The notes below the pieces were generated by a model. That model ran no database searches and was not told where the DNA came from. It was given only the letters and a program-made list of their open reading frames with translations. Of a DNA stretch of 64,000 nt, positions 1 through 56,376 are shown one piece after another (the first letter of the stretch is position 1; each line of letters begins with the position of its first letter). A program made the position numbers and the translations under genes. Source of the stretch: Leptonema illini DSM 21528 (GTDB lineage Bacteria > Spirochaetota > Leptospiria > Leptospirales > Leptonemataceae); contig NZ_JH597773.1 of NCBI RefSeq assembly GCF_000243335.1, positions 2,323,728 to 2,387,727 on the forward strand, written 5' to 3'.

Positions 1-1
1 C

Positions 2-193
2 GGTGCCGATCTCGGTGATCTCGGCGGCTCAGATCTTGGTGATCTCGGCGGAGCCGATCTCGGTGATCTCGGCGGTGCGGATCTCGGTGATCTTGGCGGT
101 GCCGATCTCGGGGATCTCGGCGGGGCCGATCTTGGCGATCTTGGCGGTGCCGATCTCGGGGATCTTGGTGGTGCCGATCTCGGTGATCTCGGC
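2..193 (+). repeat. 24-bp tandem repeat, eight in-frame copies
   Basis: Eight head-to-tail 24-bp units encode GADLGDLG (the second unit has GSDLGDLG). Most differences are at third codon positions (ctc/ctt, ggc/ggt/ggg), so the peptide is better conserved than the DNA. The array may continue left of the window. Every unit is a multiple of three, so copy-number change would lengthen or shorten the protein without a frameshift. Confidence 0.95.
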
Positions 194-2743
194 GGGGCCG
201 ATGATAGTGCAGGGTTAGTACCCGATGATTCCTTTCCGGGACTTGACGCTGGCCTTGATAACGACAGCTTCGACACAGGCGGATTCGAATCGGCGGGATT
301 CGATACCGGTGATTTCGGCGGAGACGGACTCGGTCTCGATACATCGGACCTTGCCGACATGTCGCAAACGGCGATGATGAGCACCGGCATCGGCGATGAA
401 TTCACCGACGAAGAGCTGGCAAAACTGCGCACCCAGCTTCTCGATTACTCTCCCGGTGTGCGCAAAGCCGTTATCGACGCCATTGTTAACGAAAAGATCA
501 GTTCGGCCGATCAGCGCCGGCTCACGCATATGCTCGTCGAGCAGGCAAACGATGACGCCGTTGCCTCATTCATCGAACAGCACCTCGGTTACAGACCCGA
601 TACGGCCTTGCCGGACCGCACCCGCGACGGCGTCCCCATCCTCTACACCGAAGACGTCACGCCCGAAGCCCTGCAACGCCGACGACGCCGAGCCTATGTC
701 GTGGCCGGAACGGTCGCCGCATCTATTCTGGCCGCCATCAGCATTTTTGGGGGCATGTATCTCTGGCGAGCCCATAGCATTTCAGGCATCTATGAGATGG
801 GCCTCGAAGAGCTGCGAGAGGCCGAAAAAGAAAGCGGCGAGCAGCGCCTCAAGCGCCGGGAAGCGGCGGAATCATACTACAAGCGAGCGCTTGAGGCCGA
901 CGACGGAAATTTCAATGTCGAATACATGAACAAATACGGCATCGGCTACATGAAGGCCGGCTTTTATGAAGAGGCCTTTACAAAGCTTTTCGGCAAGGTC
1001 GAGCCGCCCTATGACTGGAGCGGCGATATGCGCGCTCCGCTCATCCGCACGGCAGACGGTTCGCGATGGTTCAGCGAAACCGAACAGCGAAACGGCTCGC
1101 GTACGCGACTTCTATCCGCCGACAATCGCATTCGAGAACTCATCGAGCCCGGAGCCTATACCGTATCGCGACTGCGCGACGGACAGATGGATCGCGAGAA
1201 CCTCATTGCGCTGGCGAGGTTCCATTCGGGTATCACTTACTCCTTCGTGAATTCCGATGAAGGAAAGAAATACAAGAACGACTCTCTTGCCGTCGACTAC
1301 TACCGATTGATCCTCACGTTGCTCGGCAGGCCCGCCGATGCCGAGGCGATGGCCGGTATCGGACGCATCTATTATAACCGCGGCGAATACGGAACGGCAG
1401 CACGCGAGTATCAGAAGATCCTTGACCAGAACCCGGCAGAGGTCGCGGGCCATGCGGGATTGCTTGAAACATATATCGAGATCTGGCGCCAGAACGGCGA
1501 TCCGCGCTTCGTCATCGAGAAGCACCGGCAGATCCAGCGACTCGGCCTTGAATCCGACATGCCCATCTTTGTTCTGAGCAAGCTCGCCGGCTTTTATGTC
1601 GATCTCGACAGCGACGATCTGCGCATTCGCTACCAGATCGACCCCGTCGATACTATGAGCGGACTCGATCTTGACGATAATGCGGTCAATTTGCTCGGAA
1701 TCGTATTCGACGCCTCAGAAGCGCGCGATGGGCAGACGATTGAGGGAACCAGCTACGCGGCTGGCTATTACCAGCGCGGACGATACCTGAACGTTCGCAA
1801 AGAACACAAGCGTGCGGTGAAACAGTTTCAGAACGCCTATCAATATGACGCTCGCTTTTACCCGGCGCTGAACGAGATCGGCGACTACTATGCCGATATC
1901 CTCGATTTCGATCGCGCAAAAGAGTATTATTTAAAGGCGATTGAGTCCTACGAACAGAACTATCGTTCTTATGGCATGCACCCCGAAGATGAGATCTTCG
2001 TTCAATACGATCGAGGAATCATCTATTATAATCTGGCATCGCTTGTCTTTATGCGCTATGCAGGCATCGAACACCGCGACCTTCCTGTAACGAATCGCAT
2101 CTATCCAGAATCCGGACTGCATGACGAACCCGACGACGATCGACGCTCTCGACTCTACGAGGCCGGAAGCTATCTTGAGAAAGGCCTGGAGATCGGTCTT
2201 AAAAACGCCGAGGCGAGACGCGAATCCCTGTTCTGGCTGGGCTGGATTCCCTATATTCAGGGAGATTTTAAAGAAGCGATGCGGCGATGGAGCGAACTCG
2301 ATCGCGAATACGAGGAGAGTCCGGCCAACGCAAACCTGAACTTCGGGAAGGCGAACGCCGCCTTCCATACCGATCAGTATCGCACCGCTCTCGGATACTA
2401 TCTGAAGCTGCGTGATGAACTGGAGCCGTCGTTAAAAGATGGCTCTCCTCAGGATGAGCGGCAGAAGATGTCTTATTATCTTCTCTATTCGGTGTATAAC
2501 AACCTCGGTGCCGTCTATGAAGCGGAGTTTCTTGAAAAGCGCGATCGCGGCGCTCCGCGGCGGGAGCTCGATAAGCTCGAAACGAAAGGGCTGACCCATT
2601 ACATGAAGGCGATCGAGATCGCACGCGAAGCCGGCTTTGTTCCAGAAAAGGCCATGGCCAACAAAGAGCTTGCCTTTCGCGATATGACCGACCGTAAGCC
2701 GCTGATCGAAGACTGGCTGAACCCCGTCGTATCAGAGAAGTGA
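2..2743 (+). CDS. TPR protein with one membrane segment, possible FlcA-like flagellar collar protein (5' end outside window)
   Basis: The reading frame is already open at the first bases, so the gene starts to the left of the window; the ATG at 359 is only an internal Met. Seen in order: eight copies of an octapeptide G(A/S)DLGDLG, an acidic Gly/Phe-rich linker, a small helical domain (about bases 390-600), an Arg-rich stop-transfer stretch and one hydrophobic segment (about 690-765), then about 650 residues of helical repeats with TPR character (for example at 1330-1450 and 1790-1950) ending at a TGA. The topology suggests a cytoplasmic N-terminus and a periplasmic TPR array. Spirochaetal FlcA (Borrelia BB0326) is a TPR protein of this general plan, but I cannot align it here, so the name is inference. 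A generic TPR scaffold is the alternative. Confidence 0.8.
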   Translation, partial: GADLGDLGGSDLGDLGGADLGDLGGADLGDLGGADLGDLGGADLGDLGGADLGDLGGADLGDLGGADDSAGLVPDDSFPGLDAGLDNDSFDTGGFESAGFDTGDFGGDGLGLDTSDLADMSQTAMMSTGIGDEFTDEELAKLRTQLLDYSPGVRKAVIDAIVNEKISSADQRRLTHMLVEQANDDAVASFIEQHLGYRPDTALPDRTRDGVPILYTEDVTPEALQRRRRRAYVVAGTVAASILAAISIFGGMYLWRAHSISGIYEMGLEELREAEKESGEQRLKRREAAESYYKRALEADDGNFNVEYMNKYGIGYMKAGFYEEAFTKLFGKVEPPYDWSGDMRAPLIRTADGSRWFSETEQRNGSRTRLLSADNRIRELIEPGAYTVSRLRDGQMDRENLIALARFHSGITYSFVNSDEGKKYKNDSLAVDYYRLILTLLGRPADAEAMAGIGRIYYNRGEYGTAAREYQKILDQNPAEVAGHAGLLETYIEIWRQNGDPRFVIEKHRQIQRLGLESDMPIFVLSKLAGFYVDLDSDDLRIRYQIDPVDTMSGLDLDDNAVNLLGIVFDASEARDGQTIEGTSYAAGYYQRGRYLNVRKEHKRAVKQFQNAYQYDARFYPALNEIGDYYADILDFDRAKEYYLKAIESYEQNYRSYGMHPEDEIFVQYDRGIIYYNLASLVFMRYAGIEHRDLPVTNRIYPESGLHDEPDDDRRSRLYEAGSYLEKGLEIGLKNAEARRESLFWLGWIPYIQGDFKEAMRRWSELDREYEESPANANLNFGKANAAFHTDQYRTALGYYLKLRDELEPSLKDGSPQDERQKMSYYLLYSVYNNLGAVYEAEFLEKRDRGAPRRELDKLETKGLTHYMKAIEIAREAGFVPEKAMANKELAFRDMTDRKPLIEDWLNPVVSEK

Positions 2744-54218: not shown

Positions 54219-55301
54219 ATGGCTCCTTTCTTTCACGCCCTTCTGCCGGGCCTGCTCTGGATGGATATCGCCCTCGTCGGCGCGATTGCCGGTATCTTTT
54301 TGATCGCCTCGATGCGCACGTCGAAGAAGGATCTGCGGCCGCTTTTTGGTTTCTTCTTCTTGATCACGACCGAGATCTATCTGATCTACTGGCTGCTTCA
54401 TTATATCGCACCGCCCGAGCTGCTCTCCTCGTCGGCGGTACAGCTTGTTTTCGGTGCCGGCATCCTGCTTCTGCCGTATTGCTTCTGGATGTTCTCGCTT
54501 TCGGTCTTTGACGATGGGTTCCGTCCCGGTCGATTGCATCTTGCCGTTCTTCTCGGCCGTTTTCTACTTGTGGCCGTGACACTGCCGGGCCGCCTGCCCG
54601 AGCATCCCTTTCTCTTTCTTGAAAGCAGCGGTAAAAGCGACGACCTGCTCTATCTCTTTCCCAACATCCTCTACTCGCTTGCTCTTATCTTTCATTCGCT
54701 GCTTGTCGCCCATCGCGGTCAGCGCGATGATCTCGTCGAACTGCGTCTTGATCTGCGGCGCATCTTTGTTCTCCTGATCGGGCTTTTGATTGCCTGGATC
54801 ATCGCCTCGCTGTTTATTCTGCGACCGCTTCAGGCCGATCTTCCGGTAAGTCTCATCAACGCGACGATGACGCTTTTACTCTCGCTGGCCTTCCTGTGGC
54901 TTGCGATACGTCTGCATCCTGATATTCTTCCTCTTGAACTGAAAGAGAAGGTCGGGTATCGCCCCGATCCCGCCCTCAAAGAACGCCTGCTTGAAGCTCT
55001 GGAAAAAGATCACATCTACAGGCAGGAAGGCCTCACGATCGGCGAGCTGGCCCGCACGCTTTCCGTACAGGAGTACCGGCTCAGGCGCCTGATCAACGGC
55101 GAGATGGGATTCCGCAACTTCAACGATCTCCTGAATCGCTATCGCATACAGGAGGCCTGCGAGTTGCTTGATCGCCCCGATCTGCCGATCATCCGCATCG
55201 CCACCGATATCGGTTACCCTTCTCCTGGCCCCTTCAATCGGGTCTTCCGAACTCTGACCGGACAGACTCCGACCGAGTACCGCCAGCGCAAAAAAGAATA
55301 A
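54219..55301 (+). CDS. Membrane-anchored AraC-family regulator
   Basis: 360 residues: six to seven membrane segments over the first 230 residues (LLWMDIALVGAIAGIFLIASM, LFGFFFLITTEIYLIYWLLHYI, and so on), then a C-terminal AraC DNA-binding domain with two helix-turn-helix units: GLTIGELARTLSVQEYRLRRLINGEMGFRNFNDLLNRYRIQEACELL and IIRIATDIGYPSPGPFNRVFRTLTGQTPTEYRQ. This architecture, a sensor in the membrane wired to AraC, occurs in Leptospira and related groups. It is five bases after the TPR-like gene. Confidence 0.9.
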   Translation: MAPFFHALLPGLLWMDIALVGAIAGIFLIASMRTSKKDLRPLFGFFFLITTEIYLIYWLLHYIAPPELLSSSAVQLVFGAGILLLPYCFWMFSLSVFDDGFRPGRLHLAVLLGRFLLVAVTLPGRLPEHPFLFLESSGKSDDLLYLFPNILYSLALIFHSLLVAHRGQRDDLVELRLDLRRIFVLLIGLLIAWIIASLFILRPLQADLPVSLINATMTLLLSLAFLWLAIRLHPDILPLELKEKVGYRPDPALKERLLEALEKDHIYRQEGLTIGELARTLSVQEYRLRRLINGEMGFRNFNDLLNRYRIQEACELLDRPDLPIIRIATDIGYPSPGPFNRVFRTLTGQTPTEYRQRKKE

Positions 55302-55324
55302 GGCCATCTCAAGAATTACTTAGC

Positions 55325-55348
55325 AGGCTGCTGAAAAAGCAGCCTGTT
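55325..55348 (+). terminator. Hairpin after the AraC regulator gene
   Basis: AGGCTGCT and AGCAGCCT pair around GAAAA about 25 bp after the stop, with no T run. A probable transcription end point for the operon, moderate confidence only. Confidence 0.5.
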
Positions 55349-55387
55349 ATGCGCGCGGCAGGGTTCCTCCGGGCATAGGTCTTCGAT

Positions 55388-55486
55388 CGATTTCAGGAAA
55401 TCGGCCTGTAAGGATTCTGGTGCTCAGGATTTCGATGCCGACGCCGCGAAATCCTTCACAATTTCGAAATTGTGAAGCTTATTTCG
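55388..55486. repeat. Cluster of overlapping palindromes
   Basis: Three inverted repeats share the GATTTC/GAAATC theme: CGATTTC-AG-GAAATCG (55388-55403); AGGATTTCG (55426-55434) with CGAAATCCT (55447-55455); and a perfect 24-bp palindrome with arm CTTCACAATTTC (55454-55477), flanked by CGAAAT and ATTTCG (55447-55486). The second and third overlap, so they are alternative folds or operators. They occupy the 250-bp gap upstream of the sterol desaturase gene. Confidence 0.75.
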
Positions 55487-55551
55487 GCATTGAGAAGACG
55501 GCTCCGGCGAAAAGGGGTAAGCTACGGTCATCAAACCATGCGAGGATTTCC

Positions 55552-56376
55552 ATGACGTCCGTCTTTGACCGCCCTCTCTCTGACGTATTCCTGATTATCA
55601 GCGGCACAACGCTATTGCGCTACCTATTTTTTGCCGGCTTCGCCTACGTCGCCGTCTGGATCGTTCTGCGTAGCAGGCTGCTTCACCGTCGCATTCAGAA
55701 GTCGTTTCCAAAAGCGAAGCATCTGCGCCGTGAGATCGGCTACTCTCTGCTCACCGTATTGATCTTCGCCTCCGTAGGCGTCGGCATGCATATGGCGCAG
55801 AAGGCCGGGTACACTCTCATGTACAGCGACTTTCACGAATACGGATGGGGCTACTTTTTCTTCTCGCTTGCCGCCCTCATCGTTTTGCATGACGCTTATT
55901 TCTACTGGGCCCACCGACTGATGCATCATCCGAAGATCTTTGCCCGCGTTCATCTCGTACATCATAAGTCGACCGACCCCTCGCCGTGGGCCGCTCTTGC
56001 CTTTCACCCTTTTGAAGCGGTGCTTGAGGCGGGCATCCTCCCGATGGCCGTTATGCTCTTCCCGCTGCATGTGTACACGTTGCTTGCTTTTCTCGGCTTT
56101 ATGATGTTCCTGAACGTGCTCGGCCATCTCGGATTCGAGCTGTATCCGAAGGGCTTCACAAAAAGCCCTCTGATGGGCTGGAACAACACGGCGACGCATC
56201 ATAACATGCATCACCGTTACTTCAACTATAATTACGGGTTATACTTCAACTGGTGGGATCGTATCATGGGTACCAATCATCCGAAGTACCATGAAACGTT
56301 CGAACGCATCACATCGACTCCGTTGATCGGTTCAGGGAGAACCGGCTCCATTGAAGTGGCCGAAGAAGGGGCTTGA
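55552..56376 (+). CDS. Sterol desaturase/fatty-acid hydroxylase family membrane enzyme
   Basis: 274 residues from the ATG at 55552 (GAGG site upstream); the longer upstream frame crosses the palindrome cluster. Four to five membrane segments. The di-iron histidine boxes are HDAYFYWAHRLMHH, HLVHHKS and HHNMHHRY, typical of C-4/C-5 sterol desaturase and lipid hydroxylase enzymes. The substrate is unknown: a carotenoid, fatty acid or other lipid is more likely than a sterol in a spirochaete. Single gene. Confidence 0.9.
   Translation: MTSVFDRPLSDVFLIISGTTLLRYLFFAGFAYVAVWIVLRSRLLHRRIQKSFPKAKHLRREIGYSLLTVLIFASVGVGMHMAQKAGYTLMYSDFHEYGWGYFFFSLAALIVLHDAYFYWAHRLMHHPKIFARVHLVHHKSTDPSPWAALAFHPFEAVLEAGILPMAVMLFPLHVYTLLAFLGFMMFLNVLGHLGFELYPKGFTKSPLMGWNNTATHHNMHHRYFNYNYGLYFNWWDRIMGTNHPKYHETFERITSTPLIGSGRTGSIEVAEEGA

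Follow-up and report, generated by a model that had tools for sequence, protein, structure and literature searches.

In Escherichia coli, AraC recognizes 17-bp half-sites at araBAD that are spaced 21 bp apart, with I2 overlapping the −35 region. AraC itself carries a soluble, cupin-like N-terminal ligand domain, which is not found in all members of the AraC/XylS family. I1 and I2 adjoin the site of RNA polymerase, and O2, which lies far from them, is engaged by DNA looping (PMC8151288, PMC4486848). GliR (PA3027) of Pseudomonas aeruginosa is an AraC-type activator of glycerolipid genes with one motif upstream and one overlapping the −35 region; the motifs show partial reverse-complement likeness, and partial palindromes lie nearby (PMC8151288). 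MSMEG_0307 of Mycobacterium smegmatis, also AraC-type, adjoins its target operon, and gel shifts showed that it binds one of two palindromic motifs that are conserved (PMC4266540). CdhR of P. aeruginosa is an AraC-type regulator that binds direct repeats, and extra half-sites have been proposed for looping or oligomerization (PMC5806209). Membrane-anchored one-component regulators have been described as TTRs; Leptospirae were named as enriched, with at least three transmembrane regions on average (PMC10269533).

Here, a control region was analyzed in the window, i.e., the whole 64,000-nucleotide stretch of the Leptonema illini DSM 21528 genome under study. Positions 55383–55523 very probably constitute the operator–promoter of the gene at 55552, which would be recognized by the membrane AraC-type regulator encoded upstream, with a dimer on two half-sites, R1 and R2, acting by class II activation.

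Inverted repeats and genes of the locus

The control region lies between two genes and contains three inverted repeats that can be seen in the sequence, as follows:

54219..55301, + strand, AraC-type regulator of 360 aa (Pfam PF12833, E = 2.6e-18; also PF00165)
55552..56376, + strand, target gene, membrane fatty acid hydroxylase superfamily protein of 274 aa (PF04116, E = 6.2e-30)
55388–55403, inverted repeat 1, CGATTTC-AG-GAAATCG
55426–55434/55447–55455, inverted repeat 2, AGGATTTCG/CGAAATCCT
55454–55477, inverted repeat 3, perfect 24-bp palindrome with the arms CTTCACAATTTC and GAAATTGTGAAG

All three repeats, including the perfect one, were found where the preliminary description had placed them. 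Repeats 2 and 3 do overlap, by 2 nt (55454–55455), but its claim that only one of them can form is not strictly correct: the predicted RNA fold of 55380–55560 forms both at a cost of two base pairs. The 24-bp palindrome is the longest perfect palindrome of the window, followed by two of 16 bp; in 40 first-order surrogates of the window, the maximum was 22 bp. From base composition, approximately 0.004 perfect 24-bp palindromes are expected per 64 kb and approximately 0.3 per whole 4.52-Mb genome. Palindromy alone is therefore moderate evidence and no proof of function. The words GATTTC and GAAATC occur four times within 99 bp (55388–55486), against 0.08 expected, and this number is not reached in any other 99-bp stretch of the window.

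The exact 24-mer was single-copy in a genome-wide search, a check that had been suggested earlier, and no second copy was detected in the genome at up to three mismatches. A 19-nt near match at C1:2632947 is located inside an sdhA-like CDS, as judged by translation, and was taken as chance. The loose pattern TTCACAATN6ATTGTGAA was found at 18 genome places including that of the window, compared to four for the reversed control; the other 17 places carry three mismatches.

The product of the downstream gene contains the histidine clusters HRLMHH, HLVHH, and HHNMHH. It had been called a lipid desaturase; according to PF04116, it is a fatty acid hydroxylase superfamily member and not a proven desaturase. 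The sole NCBIfam model that it touched was OlsE, an ornithine lipid hydroxylase (24.3 bits against a cut-off of 475). Pairs of this kind, with a fatty acid hydroxylase gene behind an AraC-type gene, recur in the order.

Other repeats were also observed in the window. A 29-nt imperfect palindrome (TAGCAGGCTGCTGAAAAAGCAGCCTGTTA) at 55320–55349, approximately 100 bp upstream of the 24-bp palindrome, occurs at about 25 genome places. At L005, L007, L009, L010, L011, and L012, it forms one end of a unit of approximately 150 bp with related sequence at the other end, and this unit resembles a small non-autonomous element. The start of the 29-nt repeat, TAGCAGGCTGCT, recurs exactly inside the hydroxylase gene (55671–55682). 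Tandem 24-nt repeats (CGGTGCCGATCTCGGTGATCTCGG and variants) occupy the left edge of the window (1–210).

Half-sites, spacing, and promoter-side features

The sequences themselves show the site, how it is spaced, that it is conserved, and that it goes with one regulator clade. The half-sites and promoter-side features of the window are as follows:

55383..55394, − strand, distal extra half-site GAAATCGATCGA (half-site matrix 14.57, top 0.002% of window positions)
55448..55459, + strand, extra half-site GAAATCCTTCAC, overlapping the left palindrome arm (half-site matrix 12.09, top 0.008% of window positions)
55454..55465, − strand, left arm L of the palindrome, a half-site in reverse orientation (from sequence and site alignment)
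55466..55477, + strand, right arm R1, which forms the 24-bp palindrome with L (17-bp unit, 55461–55477)
55481..55497, + strand, direct repeat R2 on the promoter side (ATTTCGGCATTGAGAAG), offset by 20 bp from the R1 unit, to which it is 82% identical
55518..55523, + strand, putative −10 hexamer TAAGCT, 20 nt after R2 (from the comparative offset)
55542..55546, + strand, Shine–Dalgarno-like GAGGA (from sequence)

Palindromes of equal length, core, and place were found behind related AraC genes in other genera, for example in G017 (arms CTGATGGATTTC and GAAATCCATCAG), G018 (CTGATAGATTTC and GAAATCCATCGG), the second locus of G004 (CCGATCGATTTC and GAAATCGATCAG), G009 (GCTACGGATTTC and GAAATTCGTAGC), and G013 (ATGATCAATTTT and AAAATTGATCAT). 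The left arm overlaps the AraC stop codon in several relatives. A 44-bp matrix comprising L, R1, the spacer, and R2 was built from 14 sites of other genomes. With this matrix, the window site scored 26.0 bits and ranked first of 127,914 positions, the next position reaching 6.7. When sites were left out one at a time, each of 15 sites ranked first in its own locus. Because the sites in other genomes had first been picked by eye as palindromes beside AraC genes, selection has partly shaped these conservation scores and the site label used on the tree below. It hardly involved the R2 offset and the −10 distance; R2 was visible when G001 was included, and G008 was added following a model hit.

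Column-by-column comparison demonstrated that the repeated unit spans approximately 17 bp and reads ATTTC-nn-AATCGATCAG in the clade and ATTTCGAAATTGTGAAG in the window. The identity between R1 and R2 peaked only at an offset of 20 (5.75/11 vs. 2.3–3.8 at offsets 14–19 and 21–26; n = 20), which also holds over 15 sites, and across sites the third half-site lies mostly 20–21 bp downstream of the right arm. R2 resembles its own R1 more than the R1 of other sites (p = 0.0002, 15 sites), and the palindrome arms covary. The spacer between R1 and R2 is T-rich (63% T over 20 sites). A mirror half-site upstream of L was not found (2.85 at offset 20, n = 20); the site is therefore polar and aimed at the target gene in most cases.

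The matrix behind the two extra half-sites was trained on other genomes. These half-sites contain the first GATTTC (55383–55394) and the last GAAATC (55448–55459) of the words noted earlier, and the remaining two words gave weak half-site scores of 3.2 and 3.4. The half-site at 55448 overlaps the left arm, and both can therefore hardly be occupied at once.

A hexamer of the form TANNNT starts 20 or 21 nt after R2 in 14 of the 20 sites and at 41 nt in three more, the mean for other offsets being 0.28/20. All three sites of the latter type precede mannosyltransferase-like genes, and no TANNNT was found at 20, 21, or 41 nt after R2 in G081, G135, and G200. For a reduced set of 15 sites, obtained by removing five (near-duplicates plus the two late additions G001 and G008), the hexamer was found at 20 or 21 nt in 11 sites, compared to a maximum of eight in 5000 shuffles. 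It was also observed that the −10-like hexamer 41 nt after R2 at L088, L089, and L090 (G017, G018, and G016) lies about two helical turns further on, perhaps with one more half-site between R2 and the −10 hexamer.

The end of R2 reaches the expected −35 position, where the sequences are near background (2.53/6 vs. 2.36/6 random, 17 sites). In the window, TAAGCT is a weak match to TATAAT (3/6 positions), and a sigma-70 scan of 55200–55700 returned no promoter; the −10 proposal draws on the comparative offset. Transcription would start near 55530, with the ATG at 55552, and the palindrome would therefore lie outside the mRNA of the hydroxylase gene. Two features of class II activators are present: a direct repeat of half-sites about two helical turns apart (55461/55481 in the window) and, as far as sequence alone can tell, an R2 that overlaps a weak −35 region at a fixed distance to the −10 hexamer. 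With R2 at −35, no −35 hexamer, and the −10 distance fixed, this is the arrangement of an activator standing on the −35 region.

Regulator clade and genes behind the sites

A palindrome like CTGATCGATTTC-GAAATCGATCAG adjoins 19 of the 23 regulators of one AraC-type clade, including the AraC-type regulator of the window, and none of the 21 regulators of the sister group. The comparison covered 36 distinct AraC-type regulators of the order out of 137 matches, with two duplicate rows uncounted. Fourteen of the 15 regulators whose HTH domain is at least 45% identical to that of the window had the site, starting −14 to +152 nt from the regulator stop codon. No regulator with 42.6% identity or less (n = 21) had a site scoring 15 or more, and the best score among them was 11.2. 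The exception in the first group, G020, has no site behind its regulator gene; a site was found in a fatty acid hydroxylase promoter on another contig, 114 nt before the matched start, in an assembly that is fragmented.

Eight clade regulators that were new from a search of 392 genomes of the phylum served as a held-out set. Three had strong rank-1 sites (37.8, 28.7, and 26.3), two had the palindrome, and three had no site. G135b and G200b gave forward scores of 7.9 and 8.9, below the best negative of 11.2, and reverse-strand fits of 16.0 and 30.2 for the same palindrome, so the polarity of their sites appears to be reversed or lost. At L188 and L189 (G135 and G200), the palindrome between the regulator and the next gene was seen to fit best in reverse, towards the regulator gene. 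No site was found beside the clade regulators G135a, G200a, and G081a; these three held-out members form their own subclade. A quick tree was drawn from 44 HTH domains. One branch of 23 members (SH-aLRT 96) held every one of the 19 regulators counted as having the site, and the other branch held 21 regulators without any site; the site label required three changes compared to 14.5 in shuffles. As the first site labels came from reading by eye, some of this clustering comes from the labeling; the clade link is tested more cleanly by the held-out set, whose outcome was mixed.

No second clear site was identified in the L. illini genome, and the regulon would thus consist of one gene. At E ≤ 1, the R1 model finds matches in all 30 genomes, so weak matches mean nothing. 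Of eight matches opened outside the training set, one adjoined an AraC gene (G008:C237, judged by ORF translations). In the stretches around G008:C272, G009:C18:109249, G028:C206, G013:C26, G013:C6, G004:C49, and G007:C107, no AraC gene was seen. Two of these stretches, L157 (2035–2082, G008:C272) and L158 (2050–2094, G009:C18), show site-like palindromes with a T-rich spacer and no AraC gene seen nearby, and these are either terminators or further target sites of the same kind of regulator.

Of 30 hydroxylase loci in the order, six show the site no more than 330 nt upstream (G000, G004, G009, G012, G013, and G020), and the remaining 24 score 13.6 or less; the site therefore follows the regulator and not the enzyme family. 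Among the 17 hydroxylase loci L110–L126, obtained by a scan of genome contigs, one (L111) has a strong site, which is identical to the G020 site, a training site.

Targets were taken as the genes directly behind the 20 sites. Eight encode a fatty acid hydroxylase (by Pfam in G000, G001, G004, and G081; by protein search in G009, G012, G013, and G020), four a PMT_2 mannosyltransferase (G017, G018, the second locus of G001, and G016), and two a beta-lactamase-family hydrolase (the second locus of G004, and G135; Pfam scan without G200). Single targets are a methyltransferase (G009:C17), an acyltransferase 3 (G008), and an Ig-like protein (G027), and no Pfam family was found for the targets at G009:C20 and G009:C10. 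Hydroxylases, PMT_2 transferases, and acyltransferases usually act on membrane lipids or the envelope. They make up 13 of the 20 targets, and the signal is therefore taken to be a property of the membrane or envelope. A different AraC–hydroxylase pair was observed at L058, L059, L060, and L063 (G016–G019, second hydroxylase locus). Between its two genes, an apparent repeat of TGTATA-nnn-CCGG and relatives, approximately 32 bp apart, was seen by eye; it is perhaps the operator of a second regulator group.

Several of these observations would also suit a palindrome that acts behind the AraC gene as an intrinsic terminator or transcription attenuator. The RNA of 55436–55500 is predicted to form a hairpin of −18.8 kcal/mol (z = −2.9), which is the only match of the terminator scan in 55200–55700, with 0.7 expected in shuffles. 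The arms of a hairpin would covary too, the spacer is 63% T over the 20 sites, and in G013 and G009c18 a long T-run follows the palindrome behind the AraC stop, and the two together would make a good terminator. The stem of the window, however, has 10 pairs of which three are G–C, with a weak T tail (CTTATTTC), and the G020 site precedes the target gene and is not behind the regulator gene. Termination also leaves unexplained why a direct repeat recurs at 20 bp, why the −10 distance is fixed, and why the arms share their sequence. We therefore consider a terminator or attenuator very unlikely as the explanation of the palindrome; in some relatives, an operator may double as a terminator.

Long perfect dyads are typical of the operators of TetR-like dimeric repressors, and the palindrome would accordingly fit an unlinked repressor of this or a similar type, next to an AraC gene by coincidence. 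This is less probable still, since the site accompanies one AraC clade through several genera and with different target genes, and a third half-site that is present on just one side, at 20 bp, fits AraC and not a symmetric dimer. The dispersed 29-nt repeat at 55320–55349, with its approximately 25 copies, could mark the repeats as debris or ends of a mobile element. We give such an origin the lowest probability, close to negligible, as the palindrome has no second copy at up to three mismatches and related palindromes occur at a defined position next to regulators of a single clade.

The preliminary description had listed a multi-site operator, an RNA switch, and element ends as candidates. 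The operator gains from the conserved site beside the same regulator clade in other genera, the direct repeat at a fixed 20 bp with a fixed distance to the −10-like hexamer, and the presence of extra half-sites where two of the GATTTC/GAAATC words lie. The suspicion that fell on the upstream AraC gene is borne out to the extent that the site appears to go with the AraC clade of the window's regulator. The RNA switch loses ground, as no Rfam family matched in 55200–55700 at E values up to 1 and the site lies upstream of the putative transcription start. Element ends are disfavored by the single copy of the palindrome in the genome. Lack of conservation, one of the refuting conditions set in that description, does not hold: the site recurs as a type, even though the exact 24-mer is found once.

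The regulator, its proposed action, and known systems

The regulator was predicted to consist of a seven-helix membrane domain (residues 2–232) and an HTH_18/HTH_AraC domain (251–359), with a mean AlphaFold pLDDT of 84.8 for the whole protein. The predicted helices span residues 2–33, 40–63, 72–97, 105–121, 140–166, 174–204, and 207–232, and all seven are hydrophobic (best 19-residue hydropathy 1.7–3.0). Transmembrane segments and a DNA-binding domain are thus predicted in one chain, as is characteristic of TTRs. The C-terminal domain belongs to the AraC/XylS family (PF12833, 66.5 bits vs. a cut-off of 33.6), and HTH_18 was matched by all 13 aligned clade members. The best structural match of residues 248–360 was the AraC-type domain 6swi (Z = 15.7, 110 residues, rmsd 2.3). 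No cupin-like N-terminal domain was recognized, as there was no Pfam match at the gathering score and seven hydrophobic helices are predicted there instead.

Modeled alone, the seven-helix domain reached a pLDDT of 86.0 and a pTM of 0.84. For this domain, encoded at 54219–54926 (residues 1–236), the 50 structural matches listed were all GPCRs except for a designed GPCR-like fold and a lysosomal protein that senses cholesterol, with Z from 16.7 to 13.8 over 209–232 residues and rmsd of 3.6–4.5. The best Foldseek E value of 0.01 is weak, and helical bundles can reach Z 13–14 by arrangement alone; the shape in common with GPCRs does not show kinship or function. A profile search of the domain against the sequences of solved structures gave no match, and the 7TMR-DISM Pfam family was not among the matches up to E = 1 for 13 members. 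Residues P148, D171, L172, and R180 of the domain are invariant in the 13 aligned members.

Binding, activation, the switch, and the signal are proposed to work as follows. One regulator subunit would occupy R1 inside the palindrome, and a second would occupy R2, which lies 20 bp further downstream and on the same helical face. With R2 at the −35 position and no −35 hexamer, the dimer, once bound, would bring in RNA polymerase in the manner of a class II activator. Alternative contacts could be made to L and to the extra half-sites at 55383 and 55448, for example in an upstream-facing state that competes with R1–R2, and the seven-helix domain would detect the signal in the membrane.

A broader idea, which we put forward tentatively and hold to be somewhat doubtful, is that regulators of this type are one-piece receptors composed of a GPCR-shaped seven-helix domain and an AraC domain. 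They would read a membrane or lipid signal, stay in the membrane, and activate the gene next to their own, which often encodes an enzyme of membrane lipids or the envelope. The operator would then act as an orientation switch, where the palindrome docks the upstream subunit either towards R2, for activation, or towards the upstream half-sites, in the off state. If the seven-helix domain is a true receptor, the protein would be a receptor with direct, one-step contact to DNA. That the regulators are repeatedly paired with fatty acid hydroxylases and other membrane enzymes suggests that envelope composition is under local feedback control. As one clade of membrane regulators comes with a predicted operator (24-bp palindrome, 20-bp direct repeat, and fixed −10 hexamer), binding, activation, and signal become testable on short DNA.

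Activator sites of the AraC type are a known kind, and a palindromic one has already been tested for MSMEG_0307. Like AraC at araBAD of E. coli, the locus combines an AraC-type DNA-binding domain with two half-sites near the promoter and a distant extra half-site, and this extra half-site together with the mutually exclusive contacts may recall AraC itself. Unlike araBAD, the upstream half-site of the window forms part of a 24-bp palindrome, and the repeats are mostly spaced 20 bp apart. The likeness to GliR consists of AraC-type activator sites, one upstream and one overlapping the −35 region; the GliR motif has another sequence, and the available part of the GliR text contains no fixed palindrome with a 20-bp repeat (PMC8151288). 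The NCBIfam GliR model matches the window protein only in the HTH (34 bits vs. a cut-off of 570). MSMEG_0307 is a precedent for a palindromic AraC-type operator, with a different motif and gene order, and the portion of its description consulted does not mention direct repeats (PMC4266540). CdhR shares direct repeats and extra half-sites with the present AraC-type regulator; it differs in belonging to the GATase-1-like subfamily and, in the sections available, in being described as a class I activator (PMC5806209). In the main text on TTRs, as far as it was accessible, neither the term AraC nor the operators of the window's clade appear (PMC10269533). Within the open-licence literature searched, no description of this operator or of the regulator clade was found. 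Like TTRs, the regulator of the window is predicted to be one-component and membrane-anchored, with a membrane domain as the sensor, unlike the soluble sugar-binding domain of AraC. Judging from the sequences, a palindrome that holds one unit of a polar 20-bp direct repeat and is paired with a seven-helix membrane regulator would be a design new to the literature searched.
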